This document shows, piece by piece, positions 3-26,930 of a DNA stretch of 36,483 nucleotides. Position 1 is the stretch's first letter, and each line of letters starts with the position of its first letter. The notes under the pieces are model-generated. The model had not been told where the DNA came from. It ran no database searches and was given only the letters and a program-made list of their open reading frames with translations. The translations under genes were made by a program, and so were the position numbers. The DNA lies in the NCBI GenBank assembly GCA_024278345.1, contig JAJRTK010000034.1, positions 1 through 36,483 on the forward strand, in the 5' to 3' direction. The DNA is from a bacterium. GTDB lineage: Bacteria > CSSED10-310 > JAJRTK01.

Positions 3-65
3 CAGTCGCCCATCACCGACTGCCCCATACTGGAGGCCCTGAACCCCGAAAGGACCAGAGCATGA
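3..65 (+). CDS. 3' end of a MerR-family-like metal regulator (truncated by window start)
   Basis: Frame 3 reads QSPITDCPILEALNPERTRA* with the stop at 63-65. The 'DCPILEAL' ending resembles C-termini of MerR-family metal regulators. The stop overlaps the next ATG (ATGA at 62-65). Only 20 residues are visible. Confidence 0.45.
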   Translation, partial: QSPITDCPILEALNPERTRA

Positions 66-1240
66 CCAGCGACAACTCCCCAAGACCACGCGCCAGAAAG
101 AGGCCCGCCTGCCCCGGCTGCGGAGTTGGCGGAAGAGCTGTCAAAGCCGTAACTCTTGAGTCCTTAGTGCGTCCAGAAATCTTGGGACGGCTGAGCCAAC
201 TGGACGGGTTCCGCTTCTGCGCGGAGCCCACCTGCGATGTCGCCTATTACCAACCTGAAACAGGCGACCGTGTGAAGCGGGCGGAAGTCACTGTCCGCAT
301 CGGCCAAAAAGAGACCGCCGCCCCGCGAAGGGTCTGTTACTGCTTCCAATACACTGCTGAACAAATCGAAGAAGATGTGGCAAGGACGGGAAGTTCCTCC
401 ATCCCCGAAACCATCGCTGAAAAGTGCCGTCAGGGGCTGGATCGGTGCGAAGAGACGAATCCCCAGGGAAGCTGCTGCCTCGGCAATGTCCAGAAGGCCC
501 TGGCCGCTGCCCAAGAGAAGGTCTCTTACCCTGACGCTTCCCCGCTCAAGCCACGGATGAAGCCGGGAGCCATCCTCCAAGTGGGAGCTCTTCTATCGGC
601 GATGCTGGCTTCGGTCTGCTGCTGGCTGCCGCTGCTTCTCCTGAGCCTCGGGATCTCCGGAGGAGCCCTGGCCGGAATGCTGGAGCCCTGGCGACCGGTC
701 CTTGTGCCGGTGACACTGATCCTCTTGGCCGCCGCCTTCTATTTTACCTACCGCCAACCAAAACCAGGGATTCCGGGGGCCGCTGGTGAAACGGACAGCT
801 GCTGTGAAATCCCGGAGACCAGCCAAGCGCCATCCTGCTGTCCTTCGGCGGGCAGGCGGGGCTTCACGATCAAAAAGCTCAATAAGATCATGCTCTGGGT
901 CGTCACCCTTTTCGTGCTAGCCTTCACCTTCTTCCCAAACTACGCCGGAACTCTACTGCGCGGCAAGAAGGAGGTCGCCAAGACTGTTGGCCTGGAGCGG
1001 ATCACCGTGCGGATCGAGGGGATGACCTGCGCGGCCTGCGCTGTCACCATCGAAAAGTCCTTGGACAAGGTTCCCGGCGTGGCCGAAGCTGAAGTGAGCT
1101 ACGAAAAACGGCAGGCCATCCTGGGGTTCCAGCCAGGCGCCAAACCTGTTCGGAAGGCCATTCTGGACGCAATTCAGGAAGCGGGGAATTACCAGACGAC
1201 GTTCCAGGATGACCCCGAGATTCCATCCTGGGCTCCGTAA
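62..1240 (+). CDS. Fusion metallochaperone/transporter: CopZ-type Zn/[2Fe-2S] N-terminal domain, MerT-like membrane domain, MerP/HMA-like C-terminal domain
   Basis: N-terminus has CPGCG...FCAEPTCDVAYY...VCYCFQYT...GSCCLGNV, as in Archaeoglobus-type CopZ. Middle has MerT-like 'ASVCCWLPLLLLSLGISGGALAGMLEPWRP', a Cys-rich loop and a further TM helix. C-terminus has the HMA motif 'GMTCAACAVTIEKSL'. Confidence 0.85.
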   Translation: MTSDNSPRPRARKRPACPGCGVGGRAVKAVTLESLVRPEILGRLSQLDGFRFCAEPTCDVAYYQPETGDRVKRAEVTVRIGQKETAAPRRVCYCFQYTAEQIEEDVARTGSSSIPETIAEKCRQGLDRCEETNPQGSCCLGNVQKALAAAQEKVSYPDASPLKPRMKPGAILQVGALLSAMLASVCCWLPLLLLSLGISGGALAGMLEPWRPVLVPVTLILLAAAFYFTYRQPKPGIPGAAGETDSCCEIPETSQAPSCCPSAGRRGFTIKKLNKIMLWVVTLFVLAFTFFPNYAGTLLRGKKEVAKTVGLERITVRIEGMTCAACAVTIEKSLDKVPGVAEAEVSYEKRQAILGFQPGAKPVRKAILDAIQEAGNYQTTFQDDPEIPSWAP

Positions 1241-9238: not shown

Positions 9239-10225
9239 ATGAAACGAAAGACGAGATTCCCAAAGATATTTCTGCTCCAGGAGTCACTTAGTTCATGTAC
9301 AGCGGCTCCCGTGTCGCGAACTCCGCGACGTGTCGTCAGGACTCTGGGGCTGCTCTTCTCTTGGTGTCTGACTCTGTTCTCCCCCTTCCATGCCGCGGCG
9401 CAAGAGCCCGTGGCCATCGTGACATCGCTCAAGGGTCCCGTCCAAATTCCGCATCGGGGGGAGGATCAAGAAAAGGCCAGCCTGGAGCTCTTCCAGGCGC
9501 TGGAACCAAGCTCGGTTCTGGAGCTGGCCCCCGAAGCCACGGTCATCCTGGCGTTCGTGGACGGTTCCCGTTACGAGATCCGGGGACCTGCCAAGGTGAC
9601 CATGGCGCAAAGTGGCCCGCGGAGAACTTTCGGCCGCGTCATGGAATTGACCAAGGTTTCACCGATCCCCGAGCTGCCAGCCATCGCGGTAGCGCAGAAT
9701 ACAGGATCCCATGGTGGTGCTATCTCTCTGTCCAGAAAGTTCAACGCAAACAAGAATCGATGCCCGGCAAGCTACGTGATAGCCTCGGCCCCGCGACTGC
9801 TTTTCTCCCCCATCGAGGGTGCAAAGGGGTATCTTGTCATCATCGAAGTCAACGATGAAACCCCTGCCTACCGGGGGGAAACCAAGACGACGGAGCTTGT
9901 GGTGCCGAAGGGAAAGCTCGATCCGGGAACCCATTACAAATGGCGTGTCGAGGCGATCTTCGAGTCTGGAGAAAAGAGGGCGGTCCGTGGGCCGTACCGG
10001 TTCTGGACCCTCCCGGCGAACCGCGTGGAAGCCCGCACCAAGCTTCTGAAATCGGTGGAAGGCATCGGTGATGCAAGCTCCTGGTCCCTTTTGGCGGCGA
10101 TTGACCGCCAACTGAATCTCCGTTTCGATGCGATCCACGATTTGCGGACCGCCCTGAAGCTCGATCCCGACAACAGGCAGTTCAAGAAAGCCCTGAAACT
10201 CCTGGAACAGCAAAGTCTGCGTTGA
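9239..10225 (+). CDS. FecR-like secreted protein with fibronectin-III-like and short TPR-like C-terminal regions
   Basis: In-frame ATG at 9239, just after the kinase stop. Signal-like hydrophobic stretch ending AAAQEP. 'SSVLELAPEATVILAFVDGSRYEIRGPAKVTM' is FecR-like; 'YKWRVEAIFESGEKRAVRGPYRFWTL' is Fn3-like. The track's start at 8660 lies within the kinase gene. Confidence 0.8.
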   Translation: MKRKTRFPKIFLLQESLSSCTAAPVSRTPRRVVRTLGLLFSWCLTLFSPFHAAAQEPVAIVTSLKGPVQIPHRGEDQEKASLELFQALEPSSVLELAPEATVILAFVDGSRYEIRGPAKVTMAQSGPRRTFGRVMELTKVSPIPELPAIAVAQNTGSHGGAISLSRKFNANKNRCPASYVIASAPRLLFSPIEGAKGYLVIIEVNDETPAYRGETKTTELVVPKGKLDPGTHYKWRVEAIFESGEKRAVRGPYRFWTLPANRVEARTKLLKSVEGIGDASSWSLLAAIDRQLNLRFDAIHDLRTALKLDPDNRQFKKALKLLEQQSLR

Positions 10226-14555: not shown

Positions 14556-15818
14556 TTACTCCATTGAGCCCACGGGCTTCACCACCGATTTCTTGTATCT
14601 TAGATCTTCGGCCATGGCCTTGATCTCGGACAGATCGCGCACCATCTCACTCCAGCCGTACCACAAGGCGTAGTCGGGATTCATATGGAAGGCTCCCTGG
14701 AAGGCCCTCATCCGGTGCTTGAGGTGCATGACGAAGAGCCTCTGCTCGATGGGGGTCGGTGCGTCGTGGAAGGTCAAGAGGTCAGGGAACGGGTAGGCGT
14801 AGCTTTCGGGTTTTGGAAGAACGCCATCCTTGTAGAGGCCGGCGATGACCCGGATTGCTTGGGCCAACAGATGATCGACCCGTCGAATAAGGTCGTCGCC
14901 CTTCTTGAACTCCGCCCGTGCAAAGTTCTCCGAGTGGCACTGGCTACAAGCCTTGAGAAGTTTGTTGCGCTCCTTGTCGAAGGCCTCCTGTGTGAGGCGA
15001 GCAACGTCGGCCGCCTTGACCACTTCCAGCCGCGCAGTGGGATTGCCCTGGGGATCGAGAACACCAAGAGCCTGGAGAATGGTCACCTGATCCGCTTTCC
15101 ACTGTTCGTCTTCGGGAAGTGGTAGTCGAACGGCAAGGAAGCCCCACGGCGTCCGCACCTCGTGATCTCCATCCTGCATGTGGCAGGTCTGGCAGGTGGG
15201 GGCTGCCGAAGATTCTGGAAGAATCCCGTTCTGCTTCAAGAGGGCACGGACTCCGTGTTTGGAGGAGGAGTACATCTCCCACTGAGGATGGTCGAAGCCC
15301 ATGTGGCAAGTCTGGCAGGCCTGGGGTTGAAGCGCTTCCTTGACGGAAAAGAGGTGGCGCGTGTGGCACGCATCGCACGAAGCAAGTCCAAAGCCCGCGC
15401 CCGCCTTCTTGATGGCCTTGATATCGTCCTCGCTTTTGAGACCGATCTTATGGCAACCGCCGCACCCTTTCATCCCTTCGGAGAGGGCCATGGGAAGCCA
15501 ATGAGTCGTAGGCATGGCCTTCATCGCGGCCCAAGCAAGGGCATGCTTGCCTCTGCTAAATTGATCGACCCTTTCTTGGTGGCAGGTTGCGCAGGTCTCC
15601 GGAGTGGGGATCTGGACTTTCTCCACGTCCTGGGCCGACGTGTGACCCTCGCCGTGGCAAACCGAGCAATCGACCTCATTCTGGCTATGTTTGCTCAATT
15701 GCCAATCCGTGACGATGCTGGGTGTGACCTCTTTGTGGCACTCAACACATTTCTGGGCCAAAGCACTGGACTCCAAAAGGAGAATCGTGCAGATGAGTAT
15801 CATTCGTTTCAGGTTCAT
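14556..15818 (-). CDS. Octaheme c-type cytochrome, resembling the HAO/Multi-haem_cyto group
   Basis: Signal peptide MNLKRMILICTILLLESSALAQ and eight CxxCH motifs (CVECH, CSVCH, CATCH, CGGCH, CDACH, CQTCH, CQTCH, CSQCH). 'CVECHKEVTPSIVTDWQLSKHS' and 'EMYSSSKHG' are HAO-like. Start ATG at 15818. Confidence 0.92.
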   Translation of the reverse strand: MNLKRMILICTILLLESSALAQKCVECHKEVTPSIVTDWQLSKHSQNEVDCSVCHGEGHTSAQDVEKVQIPTPETCATCHQERVDQFSRGKHALAWAAMKAMPTTHWLPMALSEGMKGCGGCHKIGLKSEDDIKAIKKAGAGFGLASCDACHTRHLFSVKEALQPQACQTCHMGFDHPQWEMYSSSKHGVRALLKQNGILPESSAAPTCQTCHMQDGDHEVRTPWGFLAVRLPLPEDEQWKADQVTILQALGVLDPQGNPTARLEVVKAADVARLTQEAFDKERNKLLKACSQCHSENFARAEFKKGDDLIRRVDHLLAQAIRVIAGLYKDGVLPKPESYAYPFPDLLTFHDAPTPIEQRLFVMHLKHRMRAFQGAFHMNPDYALWYGWSEMVRDLSEIKAMAEDLRYKKSVVKPVGSME

Positions 15819-15893
15819 TGTGAGTCTCCTGGTGTGGGTCAAGCTCAAGATTGGATCGTGGGACGCCCATAGGGCAGAACTCTTGAAAACCGC

Positions 15894-22431: not shown

Positions 22432-23592
22432 ATGAACCGAAACGCTGAACATCCTCTTTTTTTCGGCCTTGGAGGGATACTTTTTGCCATGCTCCTGTTC
22501 TGGGGAATCTTCACGATTTTGGCGGGAGCCGGCCAGGCGGACGGCCCCACAACCCGGAAGGTTGGGAAAGAAGCCGCAGACCGGGAAAACAGGTTCCAGA
22601 AGCCATCGGAAAGCTCGCTCCGGTCCCGGCTTTCGACTTTGGAGTACAGCGTGACTCAAGAGGCGGGGACCGAGCCTCCATTCCGAAATCGTTATTGGGA
22701 CAACCACAGGCCCGGCATCTACGTGGACATCGTGTCTGGTGAGGCGCTCTTCAGTTCATTGGACAAGTTTGATTCGGGGACGGGTTGGCCGAGCTTTCTG
22801 CGGGCTTTGGAACCGGAAAACATCGTTCGCCGGCGGGATCGGAGCCTCTTACGGGAGCGCACCGAGCTTCGTTCCAGGGGAGCGGATTCGCATCTTGGGC
22901 ATCTTTTCGATGACGGGCCAAAGCCCACGGGTCTTCGGTTCTGCATCAACTCAGCGGCGCTCCGGTTCATTCCGGTGGAAGATCTGGAGGGTGCGGGTTA
23001 CGGTCGATACGTCCGGATGTTCGAGAATGCTGGTACTTCTTTGGTTCCGTCCAAGAGGTCGCTGGAGCAGGCAACCTTTGGTGGTGGCTGTTTTTGGTGT
23101 ATGGAGGCTCCCTTCGACGCTTTGGAGGGAGTGATTTCAACGACGGCGGGGTACGCGGGGGGGCACTCAATCAATCCGACCTACGAAGAGGTTTCGTCGG
23201 GGCTGACGGGTCATGCCGAAGTCATCCAAGTCCTTTTCGATCCGCGGAAGGTCTCGTATGGACAGCTTCTGGAGGTTTACTGGCACAATGTCGATCCAAC
23301 CAGGAATGACGGGCAGTTTTGCGATAGGGGATCCCAGTACCGGCCGGTGATCTTCACCCACGAAGCAACACAAAGACGCCTTGCGGAGGAGTCCTGGCAG
23401 AAGATCGAGGCAAAAAAGAGATTTCCCGATGCCCTCGTCGTGGAGATCCGGAATGCCAGTAATTTCTATGCCGCGGAGGAGTACCACCAAGATTTCTACC
23501 GGAAGAACCCCGGCCGGTACAGAGCCTATCGGGAAGGATGCGGTCGTGATCGACGCCTATTGGAGCTTTGGGGGAACTCGCCAAATCATTGA
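22432..23592 (+). CDS. MsrB-MsrA fusion methionine sulfoxide reductase with N-terminal membrane anchor
   Basis: MsrB-type '[41 protein letters not shown]' and '[13 protein letters not shown]', then MsrA-type '[19 protein letters not shown]' and 'GYAGG'. N-terminal TM '[20 protein letters not shown]'. Confidence 0.92.
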
Positions 23593-25787: not shown

Positions 25788-26588
25788 TTATTTCGACGGT
25801 TTCGTGGTAGGACCCACTGCGGCAGCGGCTTCCTTTTCGCCCATGCCACCTGGTCCCTTCATCATGGGGCAGGGTGAATCTTCACCCTTCATCGCATGCT
25901 TCACGTGATGCATCATGTGTTTCGCCATGCCATGCATCGAATGGGCAAGCTGATCCCTCAGGACTTTGCGCTGCCTAATCAACTCGGTAAGCACCGCGGC
26001 CATGGCTTTGGTTTTCCCTTCGCCTTCCAGCTCATTCATGGCCGCAACGAGGCCAGCGAGCTTGCCGTCCATGGATTCCATCTGGGCAACCATGTCCTTG
26101 TGGCCCGCCATCATAGCCTTGCAGCGATCCATCATGCCGCCATGCTTCTTGCAGGCCTCTTTGCCCTTCTCACCATGCTTCTTGCAGCACTTTTTGCCCT
26201 TCTCACCATGCTTCTTGCAGGCCTCTTTGCCCTTCTCGCCATGCTTCTTGCAGCACTTTTTGCCCTTCTCACCATGCTTCTTGCGGGCCTCTTTGCCCTT
26301 CTCGCCATGCTTCTTACAGCACTTTTTGCCCTTCTCGCCATGCTTCTTGCAGGCTTCTTTGCCCTTCTCACCATGCTTCTTGCAGGCTTCTTTGCCCTTC
26401 TCGCCATGCTTCTTGCAGGCTTCTTTGCCCTTCTCACCATGCTTTTTGCAGCACTTTTTCTCTTTTGTCGGCTGCGAGGTCACGGCATCGACCGGAGCCG
26501 GTTTCGTTGCAGGCTGATCCTGGGCCATGGTTCCCAACGGAAGCAGCATGGCGGTGAACAAAAACATGGCGGTTCGGAAAGTTCTCAT
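25788..26588 (-). CDS. Secreted Cys/His/Lys tandem-repeat protein with Met/His-rich C-terminal domain; putative metal-binding
   Basis: Signal peptide MRTFRTAMFLFTAMLLPLGTMAQ; ten 11-aa units of K[KE][CA][CR]KKHGEKG; C-terminal domain with CKAMMAGHKDM, HSMHGMAKHMMHHVKHAM and CPMMKG. Confidence 0.88.
   Translation of the reverse strand: MRTFRTAMFLFTAMLLPLGTMAQDQPATKPAPVDAVTSQPTKEKKCCKKHGEKGKEACKKHGEKGKEACKKHGEKGKEACKKHGEKGKKCCKKHGEKGKEARKKHGEKGKKCCKKHGEKGKEACKKHGEKGKKCCKKHGEKGKEACKKHGGMMDRCKAMMAGHKDMVAQMESMDGKLAGLVAAMNELEGEGKTKAMAAVLTELIRQRKVLRDQLAHSMHGMAKHMMHHVKHAMKGEDSPCPMMKGPGGMGEKEAAAAVGPTTKPSK
26130..26459 (-). repeat. Tandem 33-bp coding repeat, ten units (330 bp)
   Basis: Period-33 repeat of ctt(g/a)cag(g/c)(c/a)ctctttgcccttctc(g/a)ccatgcttc on the + strand, encoding the 11-aa units. 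Confidence 0.95.
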
Positions 26589-26930
26589 AAGGTTTTCTCC
26601 CTTTCAAGAGTTATCCAGAAAGTCTCCAGAGATCTGCCGCTACGGCGACTCCACGTCTCCACCAGCGGTCCTATCGATTGGGCATCTGACCCACCACCAA
26701 TCCGCGCCAAAAACACCGGGACTCTCCGTATTGTTTTTGGGGTTGGATTCTGACAGCAATGAACCACTAGCCAGATTTGCCGCGGTGTGCAACTATTGGT
26801 GAGAATCGATCTCTAGTTCAACGCGGTGGGCTCTACATGTCATTCGACGGTGGACAAAGAGGATCGCGACCTGAGTGGGTAAATCCGCGGCGGAGTTCTT
26901 TACCGTCTTGGAACTCGGAGATGACGTGAT

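Follow-up and report, generated by a model that had tools for sequence, protein, structure and literature searches.

The gene at 25788–26588 of the window (the whole stretch of DNA analysed here, 36,483 nucleotides) appears to encode an envelope-localised sponge for soft metal ions, most likely for Cu(I), with Ag(I) or Hg(II) as further possibilities, a reading to which we assign a probability of about 0.6. The C-terminal domain of the product (~100 aa) belongs to a conserved, uncharacterised and unnamed family of exported proteins that has no Pfam or NCBIfam model. The array of Cys- and His-containing repeats that precedes this domain looks like a lineage-specific extension, found only in the window genome among the 290 genomes checked. 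Periplasmic copper/silver sponges are a known class; the family is unnamed and the architecture of array plus hairpin was seen only here.

In the ORF list of the window, 25788–26588 is a minus-strand frame encoding 266 aa, and further frames through the 33-bp repeat are also open. Since the ribosome-binding site, the signal peptide, the array and the conserved domain are all in frame only on the minus strand, this frame is the real one. Its features are as follows:

25788–26588, minus strand: whole gene, coding for 266 aa and ending with its stop codon, the sole gene on that strand between plus-strand genes
26597–26603, minus strand: ribosome-binding site AAGGGAG, 8 nt ahead of the ATG, from reading of the sequence
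26523–26588, minus strand: Sec-type signal peptide, aa 1–22, MRTFRTAMFLFTAMLLPLGTMA, predicted by inspection and the −3/−1 rule
26460–26522, minus strand: Pro/Thr-rich linker, aa 23–43, from the sequence (AlphaFold2 pLDDT mostly under 50)
26130–26459, minus strand: ten 11-aa repeats, aa 44–153, from the sequence and Tandem Repeats Finder (low confidence in AlphaFold2)
26034–26141, minus strand: predicted hairpin helix 1, aa 150–185, with the invariant Cys156 and Met159 (AlphaFold2 pLDDT mostly above 87; invariant alignment columns)
25890–26024, minus strand: predicted hairpin helix 2, aa 189–233, ending in the Met/His cluster M221, H224, M225, M226 and H228 (AlphaFold2; invariant alignment columns)
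25860–25871, minus strand: invariant CPMM motif, aa 240–243, just past helix 2 (invariant alignment columns)

By the −3/−1 rule the signal peptide is likely to be cleaved before QD, and signal peptides are also present at the start of the related proteins described below. We found no promoter or terminator matches near the gene. It is adjoined on one side by a convergent DUF362 gene, followed by an MsrAB gene, and on the other by genes for a PilZ protein and an aldo-keto reductase, and there is no metal gene among these flanking genes. The MsrAB gene (22432–23592, plus strand), which lies 2.2 kb from the repeat-protein gene, codes for an MsrB–MsrA fusion with the SelR domain first, the PMSR domain second and an N-terminal membrane segment, and its product is probably an envelope methionine sulfoxide reductase. 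Elsewhere in the window, 62–1240 (plus strand), ~24.5 kb from the repeat-protein gene, codes for a product of 392 aa in which zf_CopZ, MerT-like and HMA domains are combined, a predicted fusion for the transport or chaperoning of a metal (mercury or copper), and 14556–15848 (minus strand) codes for a multihaem cytochrome of the Multi-haem_cyto/cytochrome c554 type.

A preliminary description, made from the letters of the DNA, had pictured a secreted, highly basic protein in which ten 11-aa units, one with Arg for Cys, supply about 13 Cys and 10 His. All of these counts were correct on recount, the net charge of the array is ~+29, its commonest residue is Lys (43 of 110), and export is predicted from the signal peptide. 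Two types of unit were likewise distinguished correctly, A (KKCCKKHGEKG) and B (KEACKKHGEKG); they do not strictly alternate as had been stated, the order being ABBBABABAB. Four units are of the KKCC type and six of the KEAC type, including the sixth of the array, in which Arg replaces Cys (KEAR), and the tenth, which is shortened to KEACKKHG and runs straight into GMMDRC. The Met/His-rich C-terminus, including CPMMKG, is as had been quoted. Tandem Repeats Finder reports a single array at 26140–26459 with periods of 33 and 66 bp (scores of 491 and 554, 89–94% matches), although the exact number of repeats could be an assembly estimate, the source being a draft MAG of 550 contigs. Units of the same type differ mostly at synonymous positions (pS 0.29 versus pN 0.05), which suggests that the array is under constraint at the amino-acid level, the units being few and non-independent.

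Searched for separately, a degenerate pattern of two successive units was found at 8 places in the window and nowhere in the 289 other genomes of the 290 searched. No CKKHG array was seen in any of the relatives that we read, including 14 that were aligned, and a literature search for the repeat string gave no match. Because no relative carries the array, its role has to be read from its composition. In the full-length AlphaFold2 model the array is drawn as a helix with pLDDT of ~42–66; it may be either disordered or ordered by metal.

The C-terminal domain is modelled with more confidence. From an alignment of 15 rows, AlphaFold2 predicts two helices (aa 150–185 and 189–233) with pLDDT mostly between 87 and 98, the CPMM tail being less certain. 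If, as the helix boundaries imply, the two pack as an antiparallel hairpin, C156 and M159 would be brought near M221–H228 and the CPMM tail. The columns that are invariant across the 15 sequences include C156, M159, M221, H224, M225, M226, H228, C240, P241, M242 and M243, and are thus dominated by possible ligands of soft metals (all of those listed except P241). Searches of Pfam, NCBIfam and the PDB with the whole protein, the C-terminal domain and the family returned chance-level matches only. A match to the NCBIfam model PspC (E 0.0003) was rejected as compositional, reflecting richness in Lys and Glu, and its score of 19.7 is far under the cut-off of 500. A PDB fold search with the hairpin found no real match (best E 2.1), which says little, since a simple hairpin would be expected to behave in this way.

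The relatives of this domain came to light in steps of increasing sensitivity. A single-sequence search of 98 genomes with the window protein found one relative (in G011, E 1.4e-9), and a contig search with its C-terminal domain alone found none, so that an alignment of relatives was needed. With a two-row profile, 386 genomes yielded two copies in G359 and one relative in G293. A four-row profile found relatives in 34 of 394 genomes (~9%) in an Acidobacteria-centred sample around G359, as well as at 17 named loci, which belong to Acidobacteria, Armatimonadetes, Verrucomicrobia, one MAG each from Desulfobacterales, deltaproteobacteria and Bacteroidetes, and others. No relatives were found in viral contigs or in plasmids. 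A match in G042 proved to be an unrelated Lys/Pro repeat protein. The window domain is 30–40% identical to 14 of the named-locus relatives and matches the family profile with E 4e-43, a value obtained with an alignment that contains the window sequence itself. The preliminary description had recognised no named family: no library model fits, as it implied, and the domain does have a conserved, uncharacterised family of its own.

Members of the family are short exported proteins in which Met, His and Cys together make up a median of 23.5% of the residues after the signal peptide. They share the core C[KQ]xM ... M(D/Q)xxL...MN...K...AxV...QR...MMxHMMxHM...CPMM, to which the window domain conforms. 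The first Cys is absent from some members of the larger set (L047, L051, L053 and L058), which makes CPMM and the Met/His stretch the firmer signature of the family. Several members have a Met-rich (MPMPMQPGQSMQMPMQQ) or His-rich (GHHKDSAAGAKHHAD) tail between the signal peptide and the core; with ~132 aa, the corresponding segment of the window protein is the longest by far, the family median being 21. Three members have unusual reading frames. The Armatimonadetes relative (L004, 9907–10337) has an in-frame TAA inside the conserved core and is either a pseudogene or the victim of a sequencing error. At L023 (5842–6684) the family domain continues in frame into a Cupin_2 domain, possibly as a natural fusion and possibly through loss of a stop codon, and at L066 (822–2291) a second family copy, lacking CPMM, continues in frame into a region resembling an outer-membrane barrel (PF13557, E 0.0006).

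The genomic surroundings of the relatives point to copper. We searched 43 placements of the family in 37 genomes with PF00122 and found a P-type ATPase within 3 kb of nine of them, at distances of 0.5–1.7 kb in every case. From the number of ATPases and the genome sizes 0.27 would be expected (Poisson P ~2e-11), a probability that is generous in that related genomes are counted as independent and PF00122 takes in P-type ATPases for substrates other than copper. HMBD or YHS metal domains are present in many of the ATPases seen near family genes. In a set of 129 neighbour proteins (within ~2.6 kb), E1-E2_ATPase was the Pfam family encountered most often (10), ahead of HMBD (8) and YHS (7), and there were also three CusA-type RND pumps, two multicopper oxidases and two DUF302 proteins. 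A CusA-type pump gene lies 197 bp (L064) and 279 bp (L065) from the family gene, and a multicopper oxidase gene 34 bp (L068) and 151 bp (L020) from it. The ATPase linkage is confined to part of the family, and many loci have unrelated neighbours. DUF302 genes are found downstream of the family gene at two acidobacterial loci (L028, 8915–9322; L030, 8323–8706). At L004 a 110-aa Cys-rich, Csp3-like ORF (9556–9888) lies 18 bp upstream of the family gene; it has a weak full-length match to RkCSP3 (phmmer E 0.31), and a search with PF03860 (DUF326) did not confirm its identity as a Csp.

Since the neighbours of the window gene are not metal genes, the metal reading is carried over to it from the relatives and from composition. 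Established here are the gene and its repeats, the existence of a conserved family, the prediction of a hairpin and the genomic link between the family and metal efflux; that the protein is exported, that it binds metal, which metal this is and that sequestration is its function are inferred. The best explanation is a sponge that would work like SilE/PcoE. The signal peptide would direct the protein across the inner membrane, and at the open end of the hairpin the Cys of helix 1, the Met/His face of helix 2 and CPMM would form a site of thiolate and thioether character made of Cys, Met and His. The ten flexible Cys/His units would serve as a high-capacity, metallothionein-like trap ahead of the hairpin, in which the Lys adjoining each Cys would favour the thiolate and formation of Cu(I)–thiolates would offset the positive charge. 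The metal so caught would be held, or handed to efflux pumps whose genes lie in other parts of the genome. Two further considerations count against a sponge. In an oxidising periplasm the 15 Cys of the protein could form disulfides, and a net charge of +29 disfavours the binding of cations until thiolates have formed. Part of the earlier proposal of metal scavenging or storage, namely metal binding in the envelope, gains from the copper and heavy-metal efflux genes that lie near the relatives more often than chance would allow. A composite arrangement, in which the array stores many Cu(I) ions and the hairpin of the new family passes them on to RND or P-type efflux, is offered tentatively, as a possible way of working that we would not yet favour.

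Alternatively, the hairpin might handle metal and the array serve mainly as a polycationic tether to LPS, peptidoglycan-linked glycans, extracellular DNA or polyphosphate. The abundance of Lys and the net charge of the array would suit this role, and the relatives manage without an array; Cys and His, however, are needless in a polycation, yet 13 Cys and 10 His are kept at fixed positions in copies that vary mostly synonymously, and the shorter Met- or His-rich tails found in the same place in relatives suggest selection for metal ligands. We consider a tether unlikely. Binding of polyanions by the +29 array, which the preliminary description had suggested, is conceivable. Protection from Hg(II), Cd(II) or Zn(II) instead of Cu(I) or Ag(I) also seems rather improbable: such ions bind well to Cys/His arrays and the window encodes the zf_CopZ/MerT-like/HMA protein, but that gene is ~24.5 kb distant, Cu(I) and Ag(I) are better suited to the invariant Met residues, and genes for CusA-type pumps and for multicopper oxidases are found near members of the family.

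There is little to recommend a thiol/methionine redox buffer or a haem binder over a metal store. Cys and Met are abundant, a membrane-anchored MsrAB-type gene is 2.2 kb away and the CP of CPMM, which could be a Cys-Pro haem motif, is invariant across the family. The MsrAB gene, however, is on the opposite strand with DUF362 in between, the neighbourhoods of the relatives indicate copper rather than haem, and the c-type cytochrome motif CXXCH is absent from the window protein, which leaves covalent c-type attachment, one form of the haem binding suggested earlier, unsupported. Least probable of all is that the array is a functionless product of slippage, recently expanded on an ordinary domain: 33-bp tandem repeats are prone to expansion and the 14 aligned relatives and 289 other genomes lack the array, but the excess of pS over pN suggests that it has persisted under amino-acid constraint, and its pattern is broken just twice, where Arg replaces Cys and where the tenth unit is cut short.

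The soft-metal sponge remains the preferred reading, and its interest extends beyond the window. Some 9% of the genomes in the Acidobacteria-centred sample, and members of other phyla, carry a recurrent, uncharacterised family of exported proteins that is found beside copper efflux genes and, if it binds Cu(I), would be a candidate to fill a gap in envelope copper handling outside the proteobacteria. The window protein may illustrate how a hairpin scaffold gains a tandem Cys/His array, which could be of use in engineering metal capture.

Several known systems resemble parts of this protein. Metallothioneins are flexible, have Cys beside Lys and carry many thiols per chain, and in each of these respects the window array is like them. 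To our knowledge, bacterial metallothioneins are small cytosolic proteins without 11-aa repeats, whereas the window protein has such repeats and is predicted to be exported; metallothionein models gave no match to it at E up to 10. CpxP, Spy and ZraP are exported helical hairpins, some of them metal-binding, and the window protein is predicted to be an exported helical hairpin as well. The invariant Cys and CPMM of its family have no counterpart in these proteins, and their Pfam models were not among the matches listed at E up to 1.

Csp proteins store Cu(I) in bacteria by means of Cys residues that line a four-helix bundle, as outlined in the literature (PMC5171941). A comparable high-capacity, Cys-based storage of Cu(I) is proposed for the window protein, and Csp1, of the Csp1/Csp3 (DUF326) group, is exported too. 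In contrast to Csp proteins, most Cys of the window protein are in the repeat region modelled with low confidence, and the Csp/DUF326 models of Pfam and NCBIfam do not match it.

SilE is exported, rich in Met and His and tied to RND and P-type efflux, and has been described as a 'molecular sponge' for up to eight Ag+ ions, which it binds through His and Met, the apo-protein being disordered (PMC5008109). Its motifs are MxxHxxxxxHxxM and HxxMxxxHxxM (PMC5008109). Both motifs are absent from the window protein, which differs further in its invariant Cys, its predicted folded hairpin and its Cys/His array. A tblastn search of 72,556 plasmids, a collection that presumably includes pco/sil plasmids, found nothing with an E value of 1 or lower. 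Like SilE and PcoE, the window protein is predicted to be exported, has Met and His spaced at i, i+3/i+4 on the faces of its helices and is proposed to take up many soft-metal ions, and the association of SilE/PcoE with RND and P-type ATPase efflux is shared by the window family, through the relatives. SilE would be the closest working analogue of the window protein, and the plasmid search did not reveal it as a homologue. If the composite of storing array and delivering hairpin holds true, the role played by Csp1 or SilE would here be filled by an unrelated design.
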